Shown piece by piece: positions 44,195 to 53,342 of a DNA stretch of 64,000 bases. The stretch covers positions 2,402,036 to 2,466,035 of the forward strand of contig NC_019683.1 of NCBI RefSeq assembly GCF_000316605.1, written 5' to 3'. Position numbers and translations under genes: made by a program. Each line of letters opens with the position of its first letter. The first letter of the stretch is position 1. This DNA comes from [Leptolyngbya] sp. PCC 7376 (GTDB lineage Bacteria > Cyanobacteriota > Cyanobacteriia > Cyanobacteriales > MRBY01). The notes under the pieces are model-generated. The model saw only the letters and a program-made list of their open reading frames with translations, was not told the DNA's origin and searched no databases.

Positions 44195-47100
44195 CTAAAC
44201 AATGATTAGATCATTTTGAACACCAGCTTCAGCAGCAGAGATTGTGTCAGAAGCAACAACCTTCACGTAGTCGAAGCGACCAAATTCACCGCCATCCTTA
44301 TCAGCAGCAAGCTTAATCACATCACCAGTGCCGAGATGTACATCGTTGAGAACATACTGCGCTTGGTTATGGTCAGAAACGTAGCTCGAACCAAGATTTT
44401 GATTCCAAACCCAAGACGCCTCAACATGACCATCAATGGAAACAGAAGCACTAGTCTGACCATCATTTTCATCGAAGTAGCCGACGATAATGTCGTAAGT
44501 GCCAGTTAAACCATCAAAGGTTTGAGTCGCATAACCATGGGAAGAAGTGAGCTGAATGATGTCATAGCCATTGATGTGCTTCTCTTTGTAGTTGCAGAGA
44601 TGCATATCGCCAACTTCATAGTGAATGGGATCGATAGTAGGCTCAGGATTTGTGTACCCACTCTGATCGCTATCGCTAACGTCACCAGCAGTAACAGTTG
44701 CAGTATTAATGTAGTCACCAATCACTGTTTCACCAGCAACATCAACATTCAATTTCTTAAGCTTAAATCGATCGTTGCTACCACCAACTTTCGCTGAGAT
44801 GATGACAGTGTCACCTGATTCCTGAGCGCTGTTAAAGTCAGCCCAGCGGTCAGAAGAACCGCCCCAGTTATCTTCACGGCCGAAGCTATTGAGAGTAGAG
44901 GCAAGGTTAGAGTAAGTGATGTCACCATTGCGATCGCCAATCCAGATAGAGATGTCACTATCACCATAGACATAAGCGAGATACGCTTCATCAACCACAA
45001 CACTCTGGTCAAATTCAAAGACCACATAGTCAATATTGTTGTTATTGCTGACACGATGGCCCGAACCAGACTCATCGAGATTAGTGACACCTAAACCGCC
45101 ACCATAAGCACCGAGGTAAGCATCTTCCCAACCATAGTGATTGCTATAGCTGAATGCACTCACATCAACGTCAACGCCTTCAGAGCTGTAAGAGCGGGTA
45201 TTACCCACATGACCAGTCGTGTAGCTATTGCCCGTGAGATGGAAAGTGACATCGTTAGATGCAGTGACAACACTCAAGTCTTGAGCGGCTTCGGTCTCAG
45301 AAGTGTAGAGCCAAGTCTCACCTGCATCGAGGAGGTTGTTGCTGTTCACATCACCACTCACATAATCCGCAGTGAAGTCATCGCTAGTGTCACCAGCGGT
45401 ACCATTGTCATCGGTCACAACTACATCGTTCTTCGCGAATGACACATTACCAGTGTTAGTTACTTGGTAAGTGAATGTCACATCAGAACCAGCCGCAATT
45501 TCAGGAAGGTTATTGAAATCAACATCCATGCCATTGGTGAATTTCTCAATCTCGATACCAGGCTCAGGATTGAATTCAGGGTTGGTATAACCACTATCAT
45601 CACTATCACTAACATCACCAGCAGTAACAGTTGCTGTGTTGATGTAGTCACCAATGGTTGTTTCACCAGCAACATCGACATTCAGCTTCTTCAGCTTAAA
45701 CAGGTCATCAAGGTCATGAGGGTCTTTAGTGCTTGGAGTAAGGATTAACGTATCGCCAGAGATACCGTCGCCATTGAAGTTCGCCCAGCGATCACTGCTA
45801 CCACCGTTGTTATTTTCCTTAGTGAAGCTATCCAGGAGACTATCGCTTAGTTCAGAGATATCTGCTCCATCGCGATCGCCGATCCAGATAGTGATATCAC
45901 TATCGTGACCAACGTAATCGAGGAAAGCCTTGTCGACAACAACATCTTGATTGAATTCAAAGAGGATGACATCTAACCAACCTTGATTTTCAACCGCATG
46001 GGAGCCATCGCCATCACTGTTAGTAACACCTAAACCATGGCTATATTTGCCGAGGAAACCATCTCTCCAAACACCATTGGTGTCACGGCTAAAGGCACTC
46101 ACATCAACAACTACGCCATCCTTATTGAATGTACGAATATTGCCGTAAGAAGAGCCTGTCGAAGTGGAAGAACCAGTGAAATCGAAAGTGACATCTTTAG
46201 ATGTAGTCACCACGCTCAAATCCTGGGCAACTTGCACTTCAGAAGTGTAGAGCCAAGTTTCATCGGTATCCAAGAAACCATTGTTGTTATCATCACCACT
46301 CACATAAGTCGCAGTGAAATCATCACTTGTGTCACCGGCAGTACCGTTGTCATCAGTAACTACAACATCGGCTGCCGCAAAAGCCACATCACCGGTGTTG
46401 TCTACTAGGTAAGTAAAGGTAACCGCAGTACCTGCTGCAATCTCAGGCAAGTCGCTTAGGTCAGTGACGTCAATACCGTTAGTAAACTTCTCAATCGAAA
46501 TACCTGGATCTTGAGGCTCAGGATTAACGTAGTTAGCAGGGTCATCATCCTCTAAGCCATTAACAGTAACCTTACCGATGTTGGTGTAGAGACCAGGACC
46601 ATCTTCAAAGCTATCGAAGTCAAGGCCAGAAATCGCACCGCTGCCAACAAGATCAACAACAATCTTCGAAACACCACTGTTGTCAATATTTAGCGTTTGA
46701 AGACTGCCATCACCAGGAGCAGGAATGTTAGTTGTATCAATTAGATTGCCGTTGCTGTCATAAGCGAAGACCTTACCGCCGGACTCTTCGATGTCAACAA
46801 AGCTAATGCTATTAATATCAACTGCAGAATCAAACTTGAAAATAAGCTCGCCACCATGCGCTTCGTCATCAGGGTCAGAAGAATCACCGTCTTCAGAGAT
46901 GATGAGGATATTACCTTCAGTTGCAGTAGCAAGATCACCATCACCACCAGTGGGGTTAGCACTATCGAAGATCATCGCTTGGTCAGAACCACCAGTCGCC
47001 GAGATAGTAACACCTAAATCTGAGTACTCAGTATCAATGACTGTTCCAGCAGCAAGTGCATGACCTGTACCATCATTGTCAAAGTCAATAACATTGTTAA

Positions 47101-50100
47101 CTGTTGCACCAGTACTCAAGTCTTGAGCAGCAATAGTCTTGGTATATTTCCAAGTCTCACCAGCATCAAGGAAGTTGTTCTGGTTAACATCACCAACATT
47201 AAATCCACCAGAGAGAATCTGATCAGGGTTGAAGTCATCGCTAGTGTCACCAGCAGTACCGTTGTCATCAGTCACAACAACATCAGCGCCGGCGAAAGCG
47301 ACATTACCAGTGTTGGTTACGTCATAAGTGAAGACTGCATCCGCACCAGCTGCAATCTCAACCGCCTCCGCTGCAGTGTCAGCATCTTCGCCATTAACAA
47401 ACTTCTCAATGTCAATGCCAGGGTCTTTTTCAATGAGGCCAGCGTCAAGAGTGGGATTAAACTCACCGGGAGCCAAGGTCACAACCTGAGTCATTCCAGT
47501 TGTGGGGTCAGCATCAGAATCTAATGCATCATCACCACCTTGGTTTGCTGCAGTGAAACCTAGGAAGTCATCAGCGTTAACCGCTGTAGAAGCATCAAAG
47601 GTTACCTTATATTCTTCACCAGGGTTGAGACCATCGAAGAGATACTCACCATTTGCATCTGTTGTTGTTGTGTCAGTTGTGTCATCCGCTGTGCCGATTA
47701 CACCGTCTGCACCACCACCAGTCAGAGTTACTGTTACGCCTTCAACTCCTTCTTCTCCAGCATCTTGGATGCCATCGCGGTCTCTATCAACAAATACTTT
47801 GTCGCCTAGACTCGCTGTCTTCTCTACTAAACCTGCATCCAATGTGTCGTTAAACTCACCAGGAGCAAGGGTGACAATCTGAGTCATTCCAGTTGTGGGG
47901 TCGGCATCACTATCTAATGCATCATTTCCACCCTGGTCGGCATCGGTGAATCCATCGAAGTCACTTGCATTTGTTGCAGTGGATGCATCAAAGGTCACCT
48001 TGTACTCTTCGCCAGGGTTGAGACCATCGAAGAGATACTCACCATTTGCATCTGTTGTTGTTGTGTCAGTTGTGTCATCCGCTGTGCCGATTACACCGTC
48101 TGCACCACCACCAGTCAGAGTTACTGTTACGCCTTCAACTCCTTCTTCTCCAGCATCTTGGATGCCATCGCGGTCTCTATCAACAAATACTTTGTCGCCT
48201 AGACTCGCTGTCTTCTCTACTAAACCTGCATCCAATGTGTCGTTAAACTCACCAGGAGCAAGGGTGACAATCTGAGTCATTCCAGTTGTGGGGTCGGCAT
48301 CACTATCTAATGCATCATTTCCACCCTGGTCGGCATCGGTGAATCCATCGAAGTCACTTGCATTTGTTGCAGTGGATGCATCAAAGGTCACCTTGTACTC
48401 TTCGCCAGGGTTGAGACCATCGAAGAGATACTCACCATTTGCATCTGTTGTTGTTGTGTCAGTTGTGTCATCCGCTGTGCCGATTACACCGTCTGCACCA
48501 CCACCAGTCAGCGTTACTGTTACGCCTTCAACGCCTTCTTCTCCAGCATCTTGGATGCCATCGCGGTCTCTATCAACAAATACTTTGTCGCCTAGACTCG
48601 CTGTCTTCTCTACTAAACCTGCATCCAATGTGTCGTTAAACTCACCAGGAGCAAGGGTGACAATCTGAGTCATTCCAGTTGTGGGGTCGGCATCACTATC
48701 TAATGCATCATTTCCACCCTGGTCGGCATCGGTGAATCCATCGAAGTCACTTGCATTTGTTGCAGTGGATGCATCAAAGGTCACCTTGTACTCTTCGCCA
48801 GGGTTGAGACCATCGAAGAGATACTCACCATTTGCATCTGTTGTTGTTGTGTCAGTTGTGTCATCCGCTGTGCCGATTACACCGTCTGCACCACCACCAG
48901 TCAGCGTTACTGTTACGCCCTCAACGCCTTCTTCTCCAGCATCTTGGATGCCATCGCGGTCTCTATCAACAAATACTTTGTCGCCTAGACTCGCTGTCTT
49001 CTCTACTAAACCTGCATCCAATGTGTCGTTAAACTCACCAGGAGCAAGGGTGACAATCTGAGTCATTCCAGTTGTGGGGTCGGCATCACTATCTAATGCA
49101 TCATTTCCACCCTGGTCGGCATCGGTGAATCCATCGAAGTCACTTGCATTTGTTGCAGTGGATGCATCAAAGGTCACCTTGTACTCTTCGCCAGGATTGA
49201 GACCATCGAAGAGATACTCACCATTTGCATCTGTTGTTGTTGTGTCAGTTGTGTCATCCGCTGTGCCGATTACACCGTCTGCACCACCACCAGTCAGCGT
49301 TACTGTTACGCCCTCAACGCCTTCTTCTCCAGCATCTTGGATGCCATCGCGGTCTCTATCAACAAATACTTTGTCGCCTAGACTCGCTGTCTTGAAGAAT
49401 CCAGCATCAATTGTGGGGTTGTTTTCACCAGGAGCAAGGGAAACAGTATCTGTAACACCACTCACGCCTGCATCAGAATCAGAAGCATCATCACCACCTT
49501 GGTCGACAGGGCTCGACATATCAAAGCCATCGGGAGTTTCAAATTGGACTTTGTAGTCACCCGCAATTACATCAAAGTGATAATTACCGTTCTCGTCTGT
49601 GGTTGTGGAGTCGATAATTTCGTTATCTTCAATAACGCCATCACCATCTAAGTCTGTAAGAAGATTTACTGTTGCACCTTCAATGCCTTGCTCACCTACG
49701 TCTTGAACGCCATCTGCATCTAAATCTTCCCAAACACGATCACCTAACCGAGAAATCTCAACAGCAGCAATGATAGTTTGAGCATTCGCAACAACAGGAG
49801 CTTCGCCATCGACATCAGGAACAATTACAACAGCAACCTTTTGACCAAACTCAGTGGGGACAAAACCTTCTCCATTAGTTAGAGCAAGATTGACCATCTG
49901 ATCAACCTCAGTCTGATAGAGGTCATAAAAAGCTTGCCTGTTAGCTGGTATGCGACCATCAACTAGCTGCCAAATGGCTAATTGAACGAAATTGAAAATA
50001 TCAAAGCTTGGACTACCAAAATCAGCTGGGTCAAAATCTTGATTAATTAGCCAGTTTACGGAATCAAGATTGTCTGGATTGTCAATGTAATCAATTTCGC

Positions 50101-50407
50101 CATCAGTGCCGGAAGCATCCTCAGCATCCATGGCAGCAATGTCATAGCTAGAATAAACTTTCGCGGTGTAGACAGTACTATCGATAGTACCGTCACTAAG
50201 ATCTGTATCTTGGTCAATCTCTAAATCGCCATCAATACAATATCCATCCAAAATCAAACCGCGCAAAAAGCCAGCTTGTTCTTCGTCAGCGATCTGAACG
50301 TCAAACCAACTATCTGCATCAGAAGTGGCAAAACCTGCGCCTAGATTGAAGTTCACACTTGTTGGCAGAGCTGAAGCAAGTGAGTTGATATCGAATGTTC
50401 CGGACAT
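44195..50407 (-). CDS. Giant surface adhesin: thioester-type head, SdrD/Cna-B-like stalk, carbohydrate-binding-like tail
   Basis: 2070 residues, acidic, almost free of Cys. No N-terminal signal peptide, so type I secretion via the C-terminal end is likely (inference). Domains: residues about 20-200 contain DGYCIDGDLEI (C57) and FVQLAIWQLVDG (Q142), the Cys and Gln motifs of thioester (TED/TQXA) adhesin domains. A diverged SdrD_B domain follows (about 213-335), then five almost identical 131-residue SdrD_B repeats (about 337-991, ASLGDKVFVDRDRDGIQDAG). Next come three DUF11-like domains (PGI.IEKF.NG, VVVTDDNGTAGDTSDDF) with intervening beta domains, and a CBM-like end (about 1925-2058). A good ribosome site (CCAGGAGAT) precedes the ATG. 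Confidence 0.85.
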   Translation of the reverse strand: MSGTFDINSLASALPTSVNFNLGAGFATSDADSWFDVQIADEEQAGFLRGLILDGYCIDGDLEIDQDTDLSDGTIDSTVYTAKVYSSYDIAAMDAEDASGTDGEIDYIDNPDNLDSVNWLINQDFDPADFGSPSFDIFNFVQLAIWQLVDGRIPANRQAFYDLYQTEVDQMVNLALTNGEGFVPTEFGQKVAVVIVPDVDGEAPVVANAQTIIAAVEISRLGDRVWEDLDADGVQDVGEQGIEGATVNLLTDLDGDGVIEDNEIIDSTTTDENGNYHFDVIAGDYKVQFETPDGFDMSSPVDQGGDDASDSDAGVSGVTDTVSLAPGENNPTIDAGFFKTASLGDKVFVDRDRDGIQDAGEEGVEGVTVTLTGGGADGVIGTADDTTDTTTTDANGEYLFDGLNPGEEYKVTFDASTATNASDFDGFTDADQGGNDALDSDADPTTGMTQIVTLAPGEFNDTLDAGLVEKTASLGDKVFVDRDRDGIQDAGEEGVEGVTVTLTGGGADGVIGTADDTTDTTTTDANGEYLFDGLNPGEEYKVTFDASTATNASDFDGFTDADQGGNDALDSDADPTTGMTQIVTLAPGEFNDTLDAGLVEKTASLGDKVFVDRDRDGIQDAGEEGVEGVTVTLTGGGADGVIGTADDTTDTTTTDANGEYLFDGLNPGEEYKVTFDASTATNASDFDGFTDADQGGNDALDSDADPTTGMTQIVTLAPGEFNDTLDAGLVEKTASLGDKVFVDRDRDGIQDAGEEGVEGVTVTLTGGGADGVIGTADDTTDTTTTDANGEYLFDGLNPGEEYKVTFDASTATNASDFDGFTDADQGGNDALDSDADPTTGMTQIVTLAPGEFNDTLDAGLVEKTASLGDKVFVDRDRDGIQDAGEEGVEGVTVTLTGGGADGVIGTADDTTDTTTTDANGEYLFDGLNPGEEYKVTFDASTAVNADDFLGFTAANQGGDDALDSDADPTTGMTQVVTLAPGEFNPTLDAGLIEKDPGIDIEKFVNGEDADTAAEAVEIAAGADAVFTYDVTNTGNVAFAGADVVVTDDNGTAGDTSDDFNPDQILSGGFNVGDVNQNNFLDAGETWKYTKTIAAQDLSTGATVNNVIDFDNDGTGHALAAGTVIDTEYSDLGVTISATGGSDQAMIFDSANPTGGDGDLATATEGNILIISEDGDSSDPDDEAHGGELIFKFDSAVDINSISFVDIEESGGKVFAYDSNGNLIDTTNIPAPGDGSLQTLNIDNSGVSKIVVDLVGSGAISGLDFDSFEDGPGLYTNIGKVTVNGLEDDDPANYVNPEPQDPGISIEKFTNGIDVTDLSDLPEIAAGTAVTFTYLVDNTGDVAFAAADVVVTDDNGTAGDTSDDFTATYVSGDDNNNGFLDTDETWLYTSEVQVAQDLSVVTTSKDVTFDFTGSSTSTGSSYGNIRTFNKDGVVVDVSAFSRDTNGVWRDGFLGKYSHGLGVTNSDGDGSHAVENQGWLDVILFEFNQDVVVDKAFLDYVGHDSDITIWIGDRDGADISELSDSLLDSFTKENNNGGSSDRWANFNGDGISGDTLILTPSTKDPHDLDDLFKLKKLNVDVAGETTIGDYINTATVTAGDVSDSDDSGYTNPEFNPEPGIEIEKFTNGMDVDFNNLPEIAAGSDVTFTYQVTNTGNVSFAKNDVVVTDDNGTAGDTSDDFTADYVSGDVNSNNLLDAGETWLYTSETEAAQDLSVVTASNDVTFHLTGNSYTTGHVGNTRSYSSEGVDVDVSAFSYSNHYGWEDAYLGAYGGGLGVTNLDESGSGHRVSNNNNIDYVVFEFDQSVVVDEAYLAYVYGDSDISIWIGDRNGDITYSNLASTLNSFGREDNWGGSSDRWADFNSAQESGDTVIISAKVGGSNDRFKLKKLNVDVAGETVIGDYINTATVTAGDVSDSDQSGYTNPEPTIDPIHYEVGDMHLCNYKEKHINGYDIIQLTSSHGYATQTFDGLTGTYDIIVGYFDENDGQTSASVSIDGHVEASWVWNQNLGSSYVSDHNQAQYVLNDVHLGTGDVIKLAADKDGGEFGRFDYVKVVASDTISAAEAGVQNDLIIV
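47433..49397 (-). repeat. Five tandem 393-bp coding repeats
   Basis: Five copies of a 131-codon unit inside the adhesin gene. The middle copies are nearly identical at DNA level, including third positions, while the last (lowest-coordinate) copy diverges in its second half (VNADDFLGFTAANQGGDDAL instead of TNASDFDGFTDADQGGNDAL). The arrangement implies recent unequal crossing-over or gene conversion and a copy number that may vary between isolates. Confidence 0.92.
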
Positions 50408-50660
50408 TTTTCCGAGATCTCCTGGAGACGAAAATGAGTAAATTAGGTGATTGAGAAATTTAAGACTCGTGCTTCTCTCTCAGCTTCTTGAAATGAATTA
50501 AATCGTGAGAGAAAGACTATTATAAAAAGTTGGTATATAGAGACAGAAGAGCACACAGCACGGTGATGATTTAGTATTCGCGCCATGCACTCCAACTTCA
50601 AAAAAAGAAAAAACGAATAGAGATAGCGAGCAAAACAAATCTAGACAGATTTATTTAGAT

Positions 50661-50876
50661 TTACTCAGCAACATCACCATTCTCTTCAGATTTCTTGCGA
50701 CGCAAACTAGCAACTCCCATACCGAGGGCCGCTAAAACAGCGGGAGGAGTGGGAATATCTTGAGGAATACAAGTTGGATCGTTAGGAGAACAAGCTGTAT
50801 TTGCAGATGCAGGAGGTGCCATTACGGTAGCTGTACCGAGAGCTACGATTGCCGCCAAGGAGATGTTCTTAAGCAT
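50661..50876 (-). CDS. Small exported protein with PTPA-CTERM-like sorting tail
   Basis: 71 residues. A signal peptide (MLKNISLAAIVALGTATVMA, cleavage near ASA) is followed by a very short mature part with two Cys (ACSPNDPTC), then IPTPPAVLAALGMGVASLRR and KKSEENGD. That final stretch, a P-T-P motif, a hydrophobic helix and an Arg/Lys cluster, is the layout of PTPA-CTERM/PEP-CTERM sorting signals processed by exosortases. AGGAACC precedes the ATG. It lies directly upstream of the adhesin gene on the same strand; a shared surface role is an inference. Confidence 0.75.
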   Translation of the reverse strand: MLKNISLAAIVALGTATVMAPPASANTACSPNDPTCIPQDIPTPPAVLAALGMGVASLRRKKSEENGDVAE

Positions 50877-51239
50877 GAATTAGGTTCCTCGTAAAAAAAG
50901 TGAGTGGTTATATCTACGTAAGTACACTTCTAACATGAGTTTTCGAGAGCCTACGTGAATTCCTAGTGAAGAACAGACGGTTTATATGAAGCTCTGACGA
51001 AGCTAATGTAAAGTAACCCTCAAGCACAATCTTTTTTTGTGAAAATTTGTATTTTGCACTAGCGACTTTTAACGATTTTATGGGAGCTCAGAGTTTTTCA
51101 TCCGCAAAATAGCTGAACTTTCTGAGTGCATCACAAATTCATCAGCTCATTGTGAACCACGGGAAACCAAAAGGAAAAGGTCGCTAATTTTACAGTTTTT
51201 GATGAAATGGTGGTTTTCTAGCGAAAGGATTATTCGCTA
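50877..51239. other. Intergenic spacer upstream of the small exported gene
   Basis: This 363-bp gap has minus-strand genes on both sides and therefore holds the promoter of the 71-residue gene and the 3' end of the OmpA-like unit. I see no ORF, HIP1 site or convincing hairpin. Confidence 0.5.
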
Positions 51240-53342
51240 TTAGGGGTTGCCAGCATTAGAAGTATCTCGGGCAATGTCGAAAATTACGGTTCGGCTTAAC
51301 CAAATGGGATCATCTGAGGTGATATCTGGTGGAGGCTGCTTAACGCCAAAAGCAATGATTCGACGACGATCAATGCCTTTATCTTCAAGGAGCAATTGCA
51401 CTGCTTGCACACGTTTTAGAGCAACATCGGCAGTGTATTCGGTGGGGTGTTGATAGCCAATGATGCGGAGATTGATGTTGGGATATCGGGCAAGGTATTG
51501 TTTGACTAATAATAATTTCTGGTCAATATCACGAGGTTTGACGACAGCGGAGTTTTGGTCGAAATAGACACGGGTACTAATAGGCTGGGTCTCGACTTGG
51601 ATATTATTCGTAATTTGTTCGATGCCGTTGATTTGCTCGACGGCCTCAATAATCGTTGTAATATCGTCAGCTTGTAAAACAGTGCCGGCAAGGGTAACGC
51701 GATCGCCGTCGAGTTGGGCATCTACTTGAATGCCATTAACGCTATTGAGGGGAGTCAATATTTTCTCGATTTCAGCTTGGCGTTGGGCTTTATCTAAAGG
51801 TTCTTCAATCACCAAAATATTGTTGCTCAGCTCAAAATCTGGCAAAGTCTGACGGGCGATCGCCGCCGCTTGGTCACTGAGTTCTTGTCTTGGTAAGCGG
51901 CCAGTGAGATAAAGCGTCTTATCGCGAATATCTGGGCTGATATCTGGTGTGAGGCGATATAGAGCAAGTTCTGGCGTTGTTTGTAAGGCGATCGCCACCT
52001 CTTGCTCAAATAAATAGATTCGTCTTAACCAATAGCCATACAATCCAATCGGAATCAACGAAAGTACAAATAATCCAACCAAAAGACCTCGCCAAGGAAA
52101 ACGTCTCGGCTTCGATATTGGCCGTGGAGATTCTGAAGAATTTGAGGACTGGACAATGACAGGTTCAACAGATTCCGGTACAGATTTAGCCTCTTGAATT
52201 TTCAGCTGCACCAGGTCAGTCATTAGCGGCAACAACTCATCGAGGGGTTGTTGGGATGAAGCGATATATTGATCAATTTGCAGCAATTGGCGATCAAGCT
52301 GAGCATTTGTCTGACGTAAACGCAGCACTTCTTCATTCCACATCAAATCCCGAAATTGTTGTATCTGAGCAGCTCTATCATCGGGGACAACATGTTGATG
52401 TTGCTGACGTTCAGACGATTGGGTTTGAGGTGCAGAGTAAGCTGATGGCTGTGGTGTTGTAACGGGAGTTGTCTGTGGTGGTGGACTAGGTAGCTCAATA
52501 ACATCTGGAATTGGCGAAGCCATCACCTCAATTGGCTGTTCCTGGTTTGTCGGGGTCTCGACGGACACTTGATTAGTGAGGATGCTATTAATCTGTGCAG
52601 CGAAAGCATTTATTGTCGCATTAGTATTCGTCGGCTCTGGAGTTGGCTGTTCCTGCTTTGTTTCAGGTTTAGGGGCAGCTTGATTGTTGAGGATGCCATT
52701 AATTTGTGTGGAGAAAAAATCTACGCTCGCACTGGTATCTGTCGGTTCTTTTGGCAATTCTGGCTCTGGAGAAGTTAGTTCTGGTGTGGTTACTTTTGGA
52801 GAAGTTGGTTCTGGTGTAACGACTTTTGGAGGAGTTAGATCTAATTTTGGAGGGGTAACGGATGGTGGTGTATTGGGAGGTTGAGGAGTAGGAGAAGCTT
52901 TTGGTTGAGGGATTGGGGCAGGTGAAGGGGGTGTTGGCTCAACAAATTTCGGAGCCACAGGTACTGGTTGCGGCTTGTTTTGGATTGGAGTCGGGGCAGG
53001 CGAAGGGGGTGTTTGTTCAACAAATTTCGGAGCCACAGGTACTGGTTGCGGCTTGTTTTGGGCTGGAGTTGGCGCTGGGATTTGGTTAGGAGGAGAGACG
53101 GGTGTTTCTTTCGCTTGGGGTGGGGCGACTTGAATCACCTGTAGGATCTCATCAATTTTCTTTTCGATCGCACTTTGAACTTCGTTACCCTGGGCACGCA
53201 TCTCTTCTCGTACGCCACTAATCTGTTCTTCTAAATCACTAATTTTCGTTTCATATTCAGAAATTTGTTCTCCCAAAATCGCATTGCGAAGAATATCGAA
53301 ATCGAGGCGATCGCCATTATCCTGCTGGTTTGATTCAGGCAT
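51240..53342 (-). CDS. Inner-membrane-anchored protein with BON and OmpA-like domains
   Basis: 700 residues. N-terminal coiled coil (about 20-65, EYETKISDLEEQISGVREEM), a long Pro-rich region (about 80-330) with duplicated units containing KPQPVPVAPKFVE, a single transmembrane helix (about 419-440, LLVGLFVLSLIPIGLYGYWL), two BON-like modules (KTLYLTGRLPRQELSDQA and DRVTLAGTVLQADDITT) and a C-terminal OmpA-type peptidoglycan-binding domain (VYFDQNSAVVKPRDI, NLRIIGYQHPTE). The protein would be anchored in the plasma membrane and reach the cell wall. Such hybrids are known in cyanobacteria; the partner is unknown. Confidence 0.82.
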   Translation of the reverse strand: MPESNQQDNGDRLDFDILRNAILGEQISEYETKISDLEEQISGVREEMRAQGNEVQSAIEKKIDEILQVIQVAPPQAKETPVSPPNQIPAPTPAQNKPQPVPVAPKFVEQTPPSPAPTPIQNKPQPVPVAPKFVEPTPPSPAPIPQPKASPTPQPPNTPPSVTPPKLDLTPPKVVTPEPTSPKVTTPELTSPEPELPKEPTDTSASVDFFSTQINGILNNQAAPKPETKQEQPTPEPTNTNATINAFAAQINSILTNQVSVETPTNQEQPIEVMASPIPDVIELPSPPPQTTPVTTPQPSAYSAPQTQSSERQQHQHVVPDDRAAQIQQFRDLMWNEEVLRLRQTNAQLDRQLLQIDQYIASSQQPLDELLPLMTDLVQLKIQEAKSVPESVEPVIVQSSNSSESPRPISKPRRFPWRGLLVGLFVLSLIPIGLYGYWLRRIYLFEQEVAIALQTTPELALYRLTPDISPDIRDKTLYLTGRLPRQELSDQAAAIARQTLPDFELSNNILVIEEPLDKAQRQAEIEKILTPLNSVNGIQVDAQLDGDRVTLAGTVLQADDITTIIEAVEQINGIEQITNNIQVETQPISTRVYFDQNSAVVKPRDIDQKLLLVKQYLARYPNINLRIIGYQHPTEYTADVALKRVQAVQLLLEDKGIDRRRIIAFGVKQPPPDITSDDPIWLSRTVIFDIARDTSNAGNP

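Follow-up and report, generated by a model that had tools for sequence, protein, structure and literature searches.

A 64,000-nucleotide stretch of the [Leptolyngbya] sp. PCC 7376 genome (NC_019683.1), hereafter the window, carries on its minus strand an open reading frame (ORF) for a 2070-amino-acid (aa) protein, the putative adhesin analysed here. By predicted fold and by residues, residues 1-219 of this protein are a thioester domain (TED), albeit not a member of the Pfam family TED (PF08341) as that family is modelled; the identity is settled by structure comparison. We regard it as highly probable that the N-terminus is a genuine TED of a compact family, poorly caught by sequence models, with a thioester between Cys57 (C57) and Gln210 (Q210) as its predicted bond. 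This appraisal was based on the predicted fold, residue conservation, the domain layout and the way in which Q210 lines up with the Gln that is bonded in solved TEDs. In the literature, which we cite from excerpts throughout, TEDs have been described from Gram-positive bacteria only, for covalent host binding or conjugation.

Fold of the N-terminal domain

The AlphaFold2 model of residues 1-219, built from a 63-row alignment, had a mean predicted local distance difference test score (pLDDT) of 86 and a predicted template modelling score (pTM) of 0.86. Its six strands and helical middle match the beta-barrel plus three-helix bundle of TEDs. When the model was compared with 350,542 PDB chains by Foldseek, rows 1-22 were all TEDs (E 2.3e-5 to 0.013), and row 23 was unrelated (E 0.45). 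VIA-align gave Z scores of 8.6-11.4 for 12 TED entries of both classes at 9-14% identity, the best non-TED fold reaching 2.7. A second model, that of the TED labelled Methanocella (L037), behaved alike (pLDDT 90.3, pTM 0.86): Foldseek rows 1-12 were all TEDs, albeit more weakly than in the window search (best E 1.4e-3, none at E <= 0.001), and VIA-align placed 12 TED entries at Z 8.2-11.0, with the next fold at 2.7.

A sequence-only reading of the same DNA had proposed a thioester adhesin domain ahead of an SdrD/Cna-B-like stalk, and rightly so: the head is a TED by fold, and six SdrD_B stretches come next. The interval it gave (49880-50407) covers residues 1-176, all within a domain that runs to about residue 219 (49751), leaving Q210 outside. 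The motifs it pointed to, C57 in GYCID and Gln142 (Q142) in FVQLAIW, are real. In the model, C57 closes strand 52-57, Q142 lies within helix 137-150, and Q210 stands two residues ahead of the last strand, 212-217. YCID fits the [YFL]C-hydrophobic-hydrophilic motif of TEDs, and AQTII, which holds Q210, fits the last-strand Gln motif. The helix motif VQLAIW has the Gln and the Trp of TQxxPhiW, with Val instead of Thr as its first residue. C57, proposed earlier as the thioester Cys, keeps that role as a prediction from the model, at the end of its strand in a domain that matches the TED fold. The remark that the protein has almost no other Cys also holds, as the 2070 residues contain two, C57 and C1938.

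Residue conservation among relatives

Relatives were sought in genome contigs, one genome per species (84,980 species), with two peptides from which the Cys and both Gln are absent. The scan gave 230 matching stretches, and 64 relatives were confirmed. The observation goes beyond chance: TED is the top Pfam family for the domain, and even distant relatives, picked up with peptides lacking both residues, still have C57 and the helix Gln.

Two profiles were used. A1 was made before the wider genome scan from 12 cyanobacterial rows only; the window's own sequence (L002), L014 (no TED motif in the 420 residues read) and L015 (a second copy in genome G080) were left out of it. Applied to 64 ORFs, A1 found the Cys in 62/62 aligned, and the helix Gln and Trp146 (W146) in 64/64 each. 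The two ORFs unaligned at the Cys do carry one (WCVD in L074, AYCVS in L063). The last-strand Gln was present in 35/35 where aligned; 29 of the 64 local alignments end too soon. Among ten other Gln of the domain that were counted, only Q123 (56/64) and Q142 were strongly kept. The larger alignment, A4, has 63 rows, 39 of which make up A5. It leaves out L084, whose contig stops before the last strand, and L074, in which a long insert puts the Cys beyond the regular expression used for selection (motifs WCVD, DVQKAIW and EQITLAAV). The A4 profile, run over 127 loci, gave 90 distinct matches, 81 with the Cys, the helix Gln and the last-strand Gln together; of the other nine, eight look to us like alignments that were cut short or split, and the ninth (L126) is a genuine loss of the Cys. 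In none of the 90 did a Cys go with another residue at the Q210 place.

Q210 as the predicted partner of C57

The thioester of solved TEDs links a Cys on a strand with a Gln on the last strand; the Gln of the TQxxPhiW helix hydrogen-bonds the Cys backbone and is dispensable for the bond in Cpa (PMC4450167, PMC6194298). The VIA alignments of the window model end at model residues 219, 217 and 218, facing residues 276, 268 and 255 of 5a0g, 5a0l and 5a0n, respectively. The bonded Gln residues of these structures are Gln267, Gln261 and Gln247 (PMC4450167), that is, 9, 7 and 8 residues ahead of the alignment ends, and equal steps back in the model lead to residue 210 in 3/3 cases. Because the alignment ends bring it level with the Gln that is bonded in each of these three crystal structures, Q210 is most likely the thioester partner of C57, as predicted from the model.

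The earlier proposal had instead paired C57 with Q142. Both residues are conserved in relatives, as a bond between them would lead one to expect, yet Q142 sits on the central helix; Cpa can form its bond without the equivalent residue, and solved TEDs have their bonded Gln on the last strand (PMC4450167, PMC6194298). The modelling that had been suggested returned the TED fold, with Q142 on helix 137-150; the refuting condition set for it, a wide gap between C57 and Q142, bears on the wrong pair. A degenerate copy from a genome of the Hodarchaeum phylum (L126) bears on the same choice: WTPD stands there in place of WCxD, VPLVFIEV takes the position of the VQLIFIEV found in its relative L124, and EIQAAIW is kept. 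As read from these sequences, the Cys and the last-strand Gln were lost together and the helix Gln stayed, which is telling for the choice of partner. We give a C57-Q142 thioester hardly any credence.

Several observations weigh against the C57-Q210 TED. The Pfam gathering score of 22 bits is not reached, the isolated domain scoring 19.2 and the whole protein 14.3. Searches of PDB sequences with the single sequence, A1 and A4 found no TED; that with A4 gave three unrelated chance matches. hhalign did not recognise the class II TED of pLS20 with A4 (probability 0.5%), a weak test, the target being of class II and a single sequence. The register argument is built on alignment ends only and not residue by residue, and with the Methanocella model (last Gln 184) the ends agree for 5a0g and 5a0n but miss by one residue for 5a0l. 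The joint loss of the Cys and the last-strand Gln is known from one case, L126. Finally, the rows of A4 were chosen by regular expressions demanding the Cys, QxAIW and a late Gln, so the invariance in A4 is in part a product of that choice, which carries over to the A4 profile run on the 127 loci.

In the hidden Markov model search proposed earlier, the domain taken by itself did match TED best among the Pfam families (E 0.0016), albeit with 19.2 bits and so below the cut-off of 22. This shortfall would suit a TED-like fold without a thioester, in which the Cys and Gln are structural or the bond is absent in this lineage. Nevertheless, both bond residues are among the few positions kept near-universally, and a free conserved Cys would be odd in a protein with one other Cys, so that we consider such a bondless fold improbable.

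Proposed mechanism

For the window protein, we infer the formation of the bond and its chemistry, the surface location, the export route, the adhesive role and the target as follows. The protein would leave the cell unfolded by a type I-like route, so that folding, and hence reactivity, would arise only outside the cell. On folding, the C57 thiol would attack the side-chain amide of Q210 with loss of ammonia, giving a buried internal thioester autocatalytically, while Q142 and W146 of the central helix would form hydrogen bonds with the Cys backbone, in the manner of solved TEDs. A target nucleophile, probably a Lys amine, would then be acylated through the Q210 carbonyl, tethering the protein covalently, and the SdrD_B stalk with three predicted isopeptide domains would carry the load. 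The steps after folding are modelled on the TEDs of Gram-positives, which are reported to show a loss of 17 Da, to bind hosts covalently and to depend on the Cys for their function (PMC4450167, PMC8092201).

Alternatively, a TED with an intact thioester may serve other ends than covalent adhesion, such as domain stability or reaction with small nucleophiles or the cell's own matrix. The lack of a known host and target fits this possibility, as do two kinds of relatives unlike long adhesins: lone short ORFs (214-240 aa) in five complete records from Bacteriovoracaceae, and Allomuricauda lipoproteins without a long stalk. The window TED, on the other hand, tips a long stalk, and the Cys and Gln are conserved over great distances. 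A Cys-to-Ala structure of CpTIE is essentially identical (PMC4450167), meaning that the bond is no structural need there. A role other than covalent adhesion therefore seems to us rather unlikely.

Comparison with known systems

The window domain shares its fold (Z 8.6-11.4) with the class I TEDs of CpTIE (5a0g), SfbI (5a0l), PnTIE (5a0n) and Cpa (2xi9/4c0z), and also YC[hydrophobic][hydrophilic], the helix motif QxxPhiW and the place of the bonded Gln by the last strand. Helix 90-97 of the window model, at the alpha0 place, would also fit class I, as would the short stretch of 11 residues that leads from its last long helix into the penultimate strand. The differences are the identity of 9-14% and, in the protein as a whole, the lack of a recognisable Sec signal peptide and of LPxTG. 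With the class II TEDs of BaTIE (6fwv) and EfmTIE86 (6fwy), the upper-lobe fold is shared (Z 9.7 for both), and YCID is identical to the motif of the pLS20 TIE (PMC8092201). Nevertheless, the class II beta-sandwich insert of ~75 residues (PMC6194298) is absent here, 11 residues separating helix 165-178 from strand 190-197. The Methanocella model has no helix at the alpha0 place and so neither class-defining element.

The claim that the architecture is the same as in Gram-positive thioester adhesins is borne out for the head and the CnaB-like stalk, and fails for the Sec signal peptide and the LPxTG-type anchor of the sortase-anchored TIE proteins, to which the window protein has no recognisable counterpart. 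The MSCRAMMs SdrD and SdrC (NCBIfam NF012181, NF000535) share the B-repeat stalk; only the stalk matches, far below the model cut-off (SdrD 254.5/2500 bits), and the head of SdrD is not known to be a TED.

Fibrillar adhesins with CLIPPER and CLIPPER_2 domains have been surveyed in Gram-negatives and archaea (PMC12617251), and the window protein has three such DUF7507/CLIPPER_2 stretches above cut-off. The adhesins of that 2025 survey likewise have predicted covalent cross-links in stalks that are not Gram-positive, albeit the survey deals with isopeptide bonds; how widely other covalent bonds within a protein are distributed is, it states, yet to be learnt (PMC12617251). As for TEDs themselves, Monzon and Bateman found new clusters in Firmicutes and Actinobacteria (PMC9210967). 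An earlier survey named TED for Firmicutes and many Actinobacteria; it has Bacteroidetes sharing many adhesive domains with Gram-positives, with TED unnamed there in the part available (PMC8286594). Among the titles and abstract starts listed for TEDs with cyanobacteria, Bacteroidetes, Gram-negatives or archaea, no report of a TED outside Gram-positives was found.

Distribution across prokaryotes

As labelled in their records, the relatives belong to cyanobacteria, Flavobacteriaceae and another Bacteroidetes record, Bacteriovoracaceae, a gammaproteobacterium, Dehalococcoidia, Caldisericia, alphaproteobacteria (Paracoccus, Albimonas, Rhodovulum, Poseidonocella), Planctomycetes, Gemmataceae, Patescibacteria and Ignavibacterium, and, with archaeal labels, Methanocella, Hodarchaeum and Woesearchaeota. 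Hodarchaeum is an Asgard archaeon. The Woesearchaeota label (L085) is doubtful, judging from a bacterial-type lipobox and a protein near that of the Ignavibacterium record L077. The Methanocella (L037) and Hodarchaeum (L053) sequences derive from metagenome-assembled genomes and are of archaeal origin as labelled only. The archaeal origin of L126 is supported by a gene in its surroundings (L130) that was read as an archaeal-type tRNA methyltransferase; another sequence from the Hodarchaeum phylum, L125, is on a 4.5-kb contig.

Known sequence models catch this family poorly. At E <= 1, Pfam TED matched 48 of the 63 A4 rows, 3.5e-5 being the best value, and the second most frequent family matched 3/63. 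Among ten relatives scored, eight matched Pfam TED and none reached 22 bits. The best of the 63 rows lies near 25 bits as estimated from E-values, so the Pfam cut-off probably admits some members; 0/386 cyanobacterial genomes reach it. No NCBIfam model recurs among the 63 rows, to which eight families gave one chance-level member each, and three Rhodobacterales plasmid genes are annotated merely as SdrD B-like.

Counting the window's own genome or the genome at the centre of each set, the family is carried by 12/386 cyanobacterial genomes, 8/247 of Bacteroidota, 4/148 of the Hodarchaeum phylum and 1/114 of the phylum of the Bacteriovoracaceae record L043. Some Bacteroidota matches are weak (to E 8.7e-5), and the Cys and Gln were read in two of the seven further Bacteroidota genomes. 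Such patchy carriage weighs against a general role. No relative was found in the phage records searched, and 56 pattern matches in viral contigs yielded none confirmed.

Three side observations were made among the relatives. Two TED matches lie within about 2 kb of each other in L105 (G394, the genome of the Flagellimonas record L042) and likewise in G651 (the genome of Muricauda sp. M10, L034); these close couples are possible pairs with different specificities. In the window's phylum, four records of one family with genomes of 1.8-2.3 Mb (L016-L018 and L020) show weak Pfam TED matches at profile positions 16-96, 19-96 or 37-93 and without the Cys end, three of them in open frames of 1100-1150 aa and one in a frame of 79 aa with a stop. 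By eye, a second unnamed domain often flanks the TED (L053, L056, L069, L071-L073, L077, L085, L124, L126), in bacteria and archaea alike. It ends in IAAHAVV or similar ahead of the TED, with ETAWG..FPG.NWATYF nearby, and related text comes after the TED in Allomuricauda. Pfam reported nothing on L036.

Gene, stalk and neighbourhood of the putative adhesin

The coordinates are collected in Table 1. The start codon, ATG at 50407, is the first ATG/GTG/TTG past the upstream in-frame stop.

Table 1. Features of the adhesin gene and of its upstream neighbour in the window
Feature	Position	Strand	Content or evidence
Whole ORF, 2070 aa	44195..50407	-	TED head, six SdrD_B, three CLIPPER_2 (DUF7507), unnamed C-terminal domain; signal peptide not recognisable
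Thioester domain, residues 1-219 (best structural matches, 18-219)	49751..50407	-	AlphaFold2 model, PDB matches, sub-threshold Pfam TED
Cys57 codon, predicted thioester Cys, YCID motif	50237..50239	-	
Gln142 codon within the helix motif VQLAIW (TQxxPhiW type), not the bond partner	49982..49984	-	
Gln210 codon, predicted thioester partner by the last beta-strand (AQTII)	49778..49780	-	
Stalk, six SdrD_B (CnaB-like) repeats, about residues 221-997	47417..49747	-	Pfam PF17210, six stretches, E 2.8e-170
Tandem array, 393-bp unit (131-aa SdrD_B unit)	47457..49393	.	4.9 copies, 97% matches
Three DUF7507/CLIPPER_2 domains with XDP1-like stretches	44627..47416	-	PF24346, 38.3 bits (cut-off 27)
Unnamed C-terminal domain, residues 1928-2070 (last 143)	44198..44626	-	Eight further matches in the same genome
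Small protein, 71 aa, signal-peptide-like N-terminus, PTPA/PEP-CTERM-like tail	50661..50876	-	Just upstream of the adhesin; sub-threshold NCBIfam

The SdrD_B repeats begin at residues 221, 343, 474, 605, 736 and 867. DUF7507 is now named CLIPPER_2, and its predicted isopeptide bonds use Lys, Asp and Asn (PMC12617251). Candidates for these residues were found by regular expression in 3/3 copies of the window protein, the Lys motifs starting at 998, 1303 and 1618, the Asp motifs at 1044, 1349 and 1663, and the Asn motifs at 1274, 1588 and 1899; their pairing within each copy is our reading of the sequence. XDP1, a model of exosortase-dependent surface proteins, matches the window protein in two stretches at 107.1 bits, below its cut-off of 125. 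The best of these stretches (residues 1399-1525) falls between the Asp (1349) and Asn (1588) candidates, as if inserted in the middle CLIPPER_2 domain. A Pfam scan of the last 148 residues found no family in the C-terminal domain, and its eight further matches are in large open frames at 3.904-3.912 Mb of the same genome.

No recognisable Sec signal peptide was found in the window protein, its peak 11-residue hydropathy being 0.98 against 2.75 and 2.44 in two relatives with signal peptides, and no LPxTG motif was found with the expression LPxT[GASN]. In the cyanobacterial relatives with a readable start, no signal peptide was seen by reading, the computed value being for the window protein only. 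As a Sec signal peptide is missing, we guess at a type I-like export; HlyD-type proteins are present in the window genome, albeit with matches below cut-off, and the HlyD family is also matched in 13 of 14 control genomes. Other members appear to be equipped differently. Read by eye, flavobacterial members begin with a lipobox and those of Bacteriovoracaceae with a signal peptide, and the Rhodovulum protein (L083) has the reversed order, with SdrD_B and Big_9 first and the TED last. L125 combines a signal-peptide-like start, the TED and a C-terminal tail of VPEYSLGP, a hydrophobic stretch and KRKR; after it comes the start of a gene that the end of the contig truncates, and this fragment gives weak matches to exosortase models (E 4e-5 to 0.0017), all far below their cut-offs.

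A similar ORF to the small upstream gene, of 75 aa, is found at the same place in L003, a same-genus relative (G211). The order of an OmpA/BON-like protein, a PTPA/PEP-CTERM-like protein and the TED adhesin is shared by the window (50661-53342) and L003 (1-1486), and this gene order, kept in the same-genus relative, suggests that the three genes belong together. No Rfam family was found at 49000-52000 of the window, and no promoter-like or terminator-like site at 50300-51300.

Implications

We are somewhat inclined to the view that covalent tethering by thioesters did not originate as a speciality of Gram-positives and is instead a prokaryotic trait of wide but patchy occurrence. A compact TED family, whose one small member modelled lacks both the helix of class I and the beta-sandwich of class II, would then be displayed via several surface systems. 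In bacteria these would be stalked proteins without a signal peptide (cyanobacteria), proteins of mirror-image layout that end in the TED (alphaproteobacteria), lipoproteins (Bacteroidota) and small secreted lone TEDs (Bacteriovoracaceae). In archaea it would be a protein from a genome of the Hodarchaeum phylum, with a C-terminal anchor of sortase type and an exosortase-like gene next to its own. The corrected partner residue, Q210 and not Q142, points to the right mutant. The family is a source of TEDs from non-pathogens, marine organisms and archaea for structural work and for protein-ligation chemistry, and it makes the spread of thioesters directly testable in diderm bacteria and archaea.

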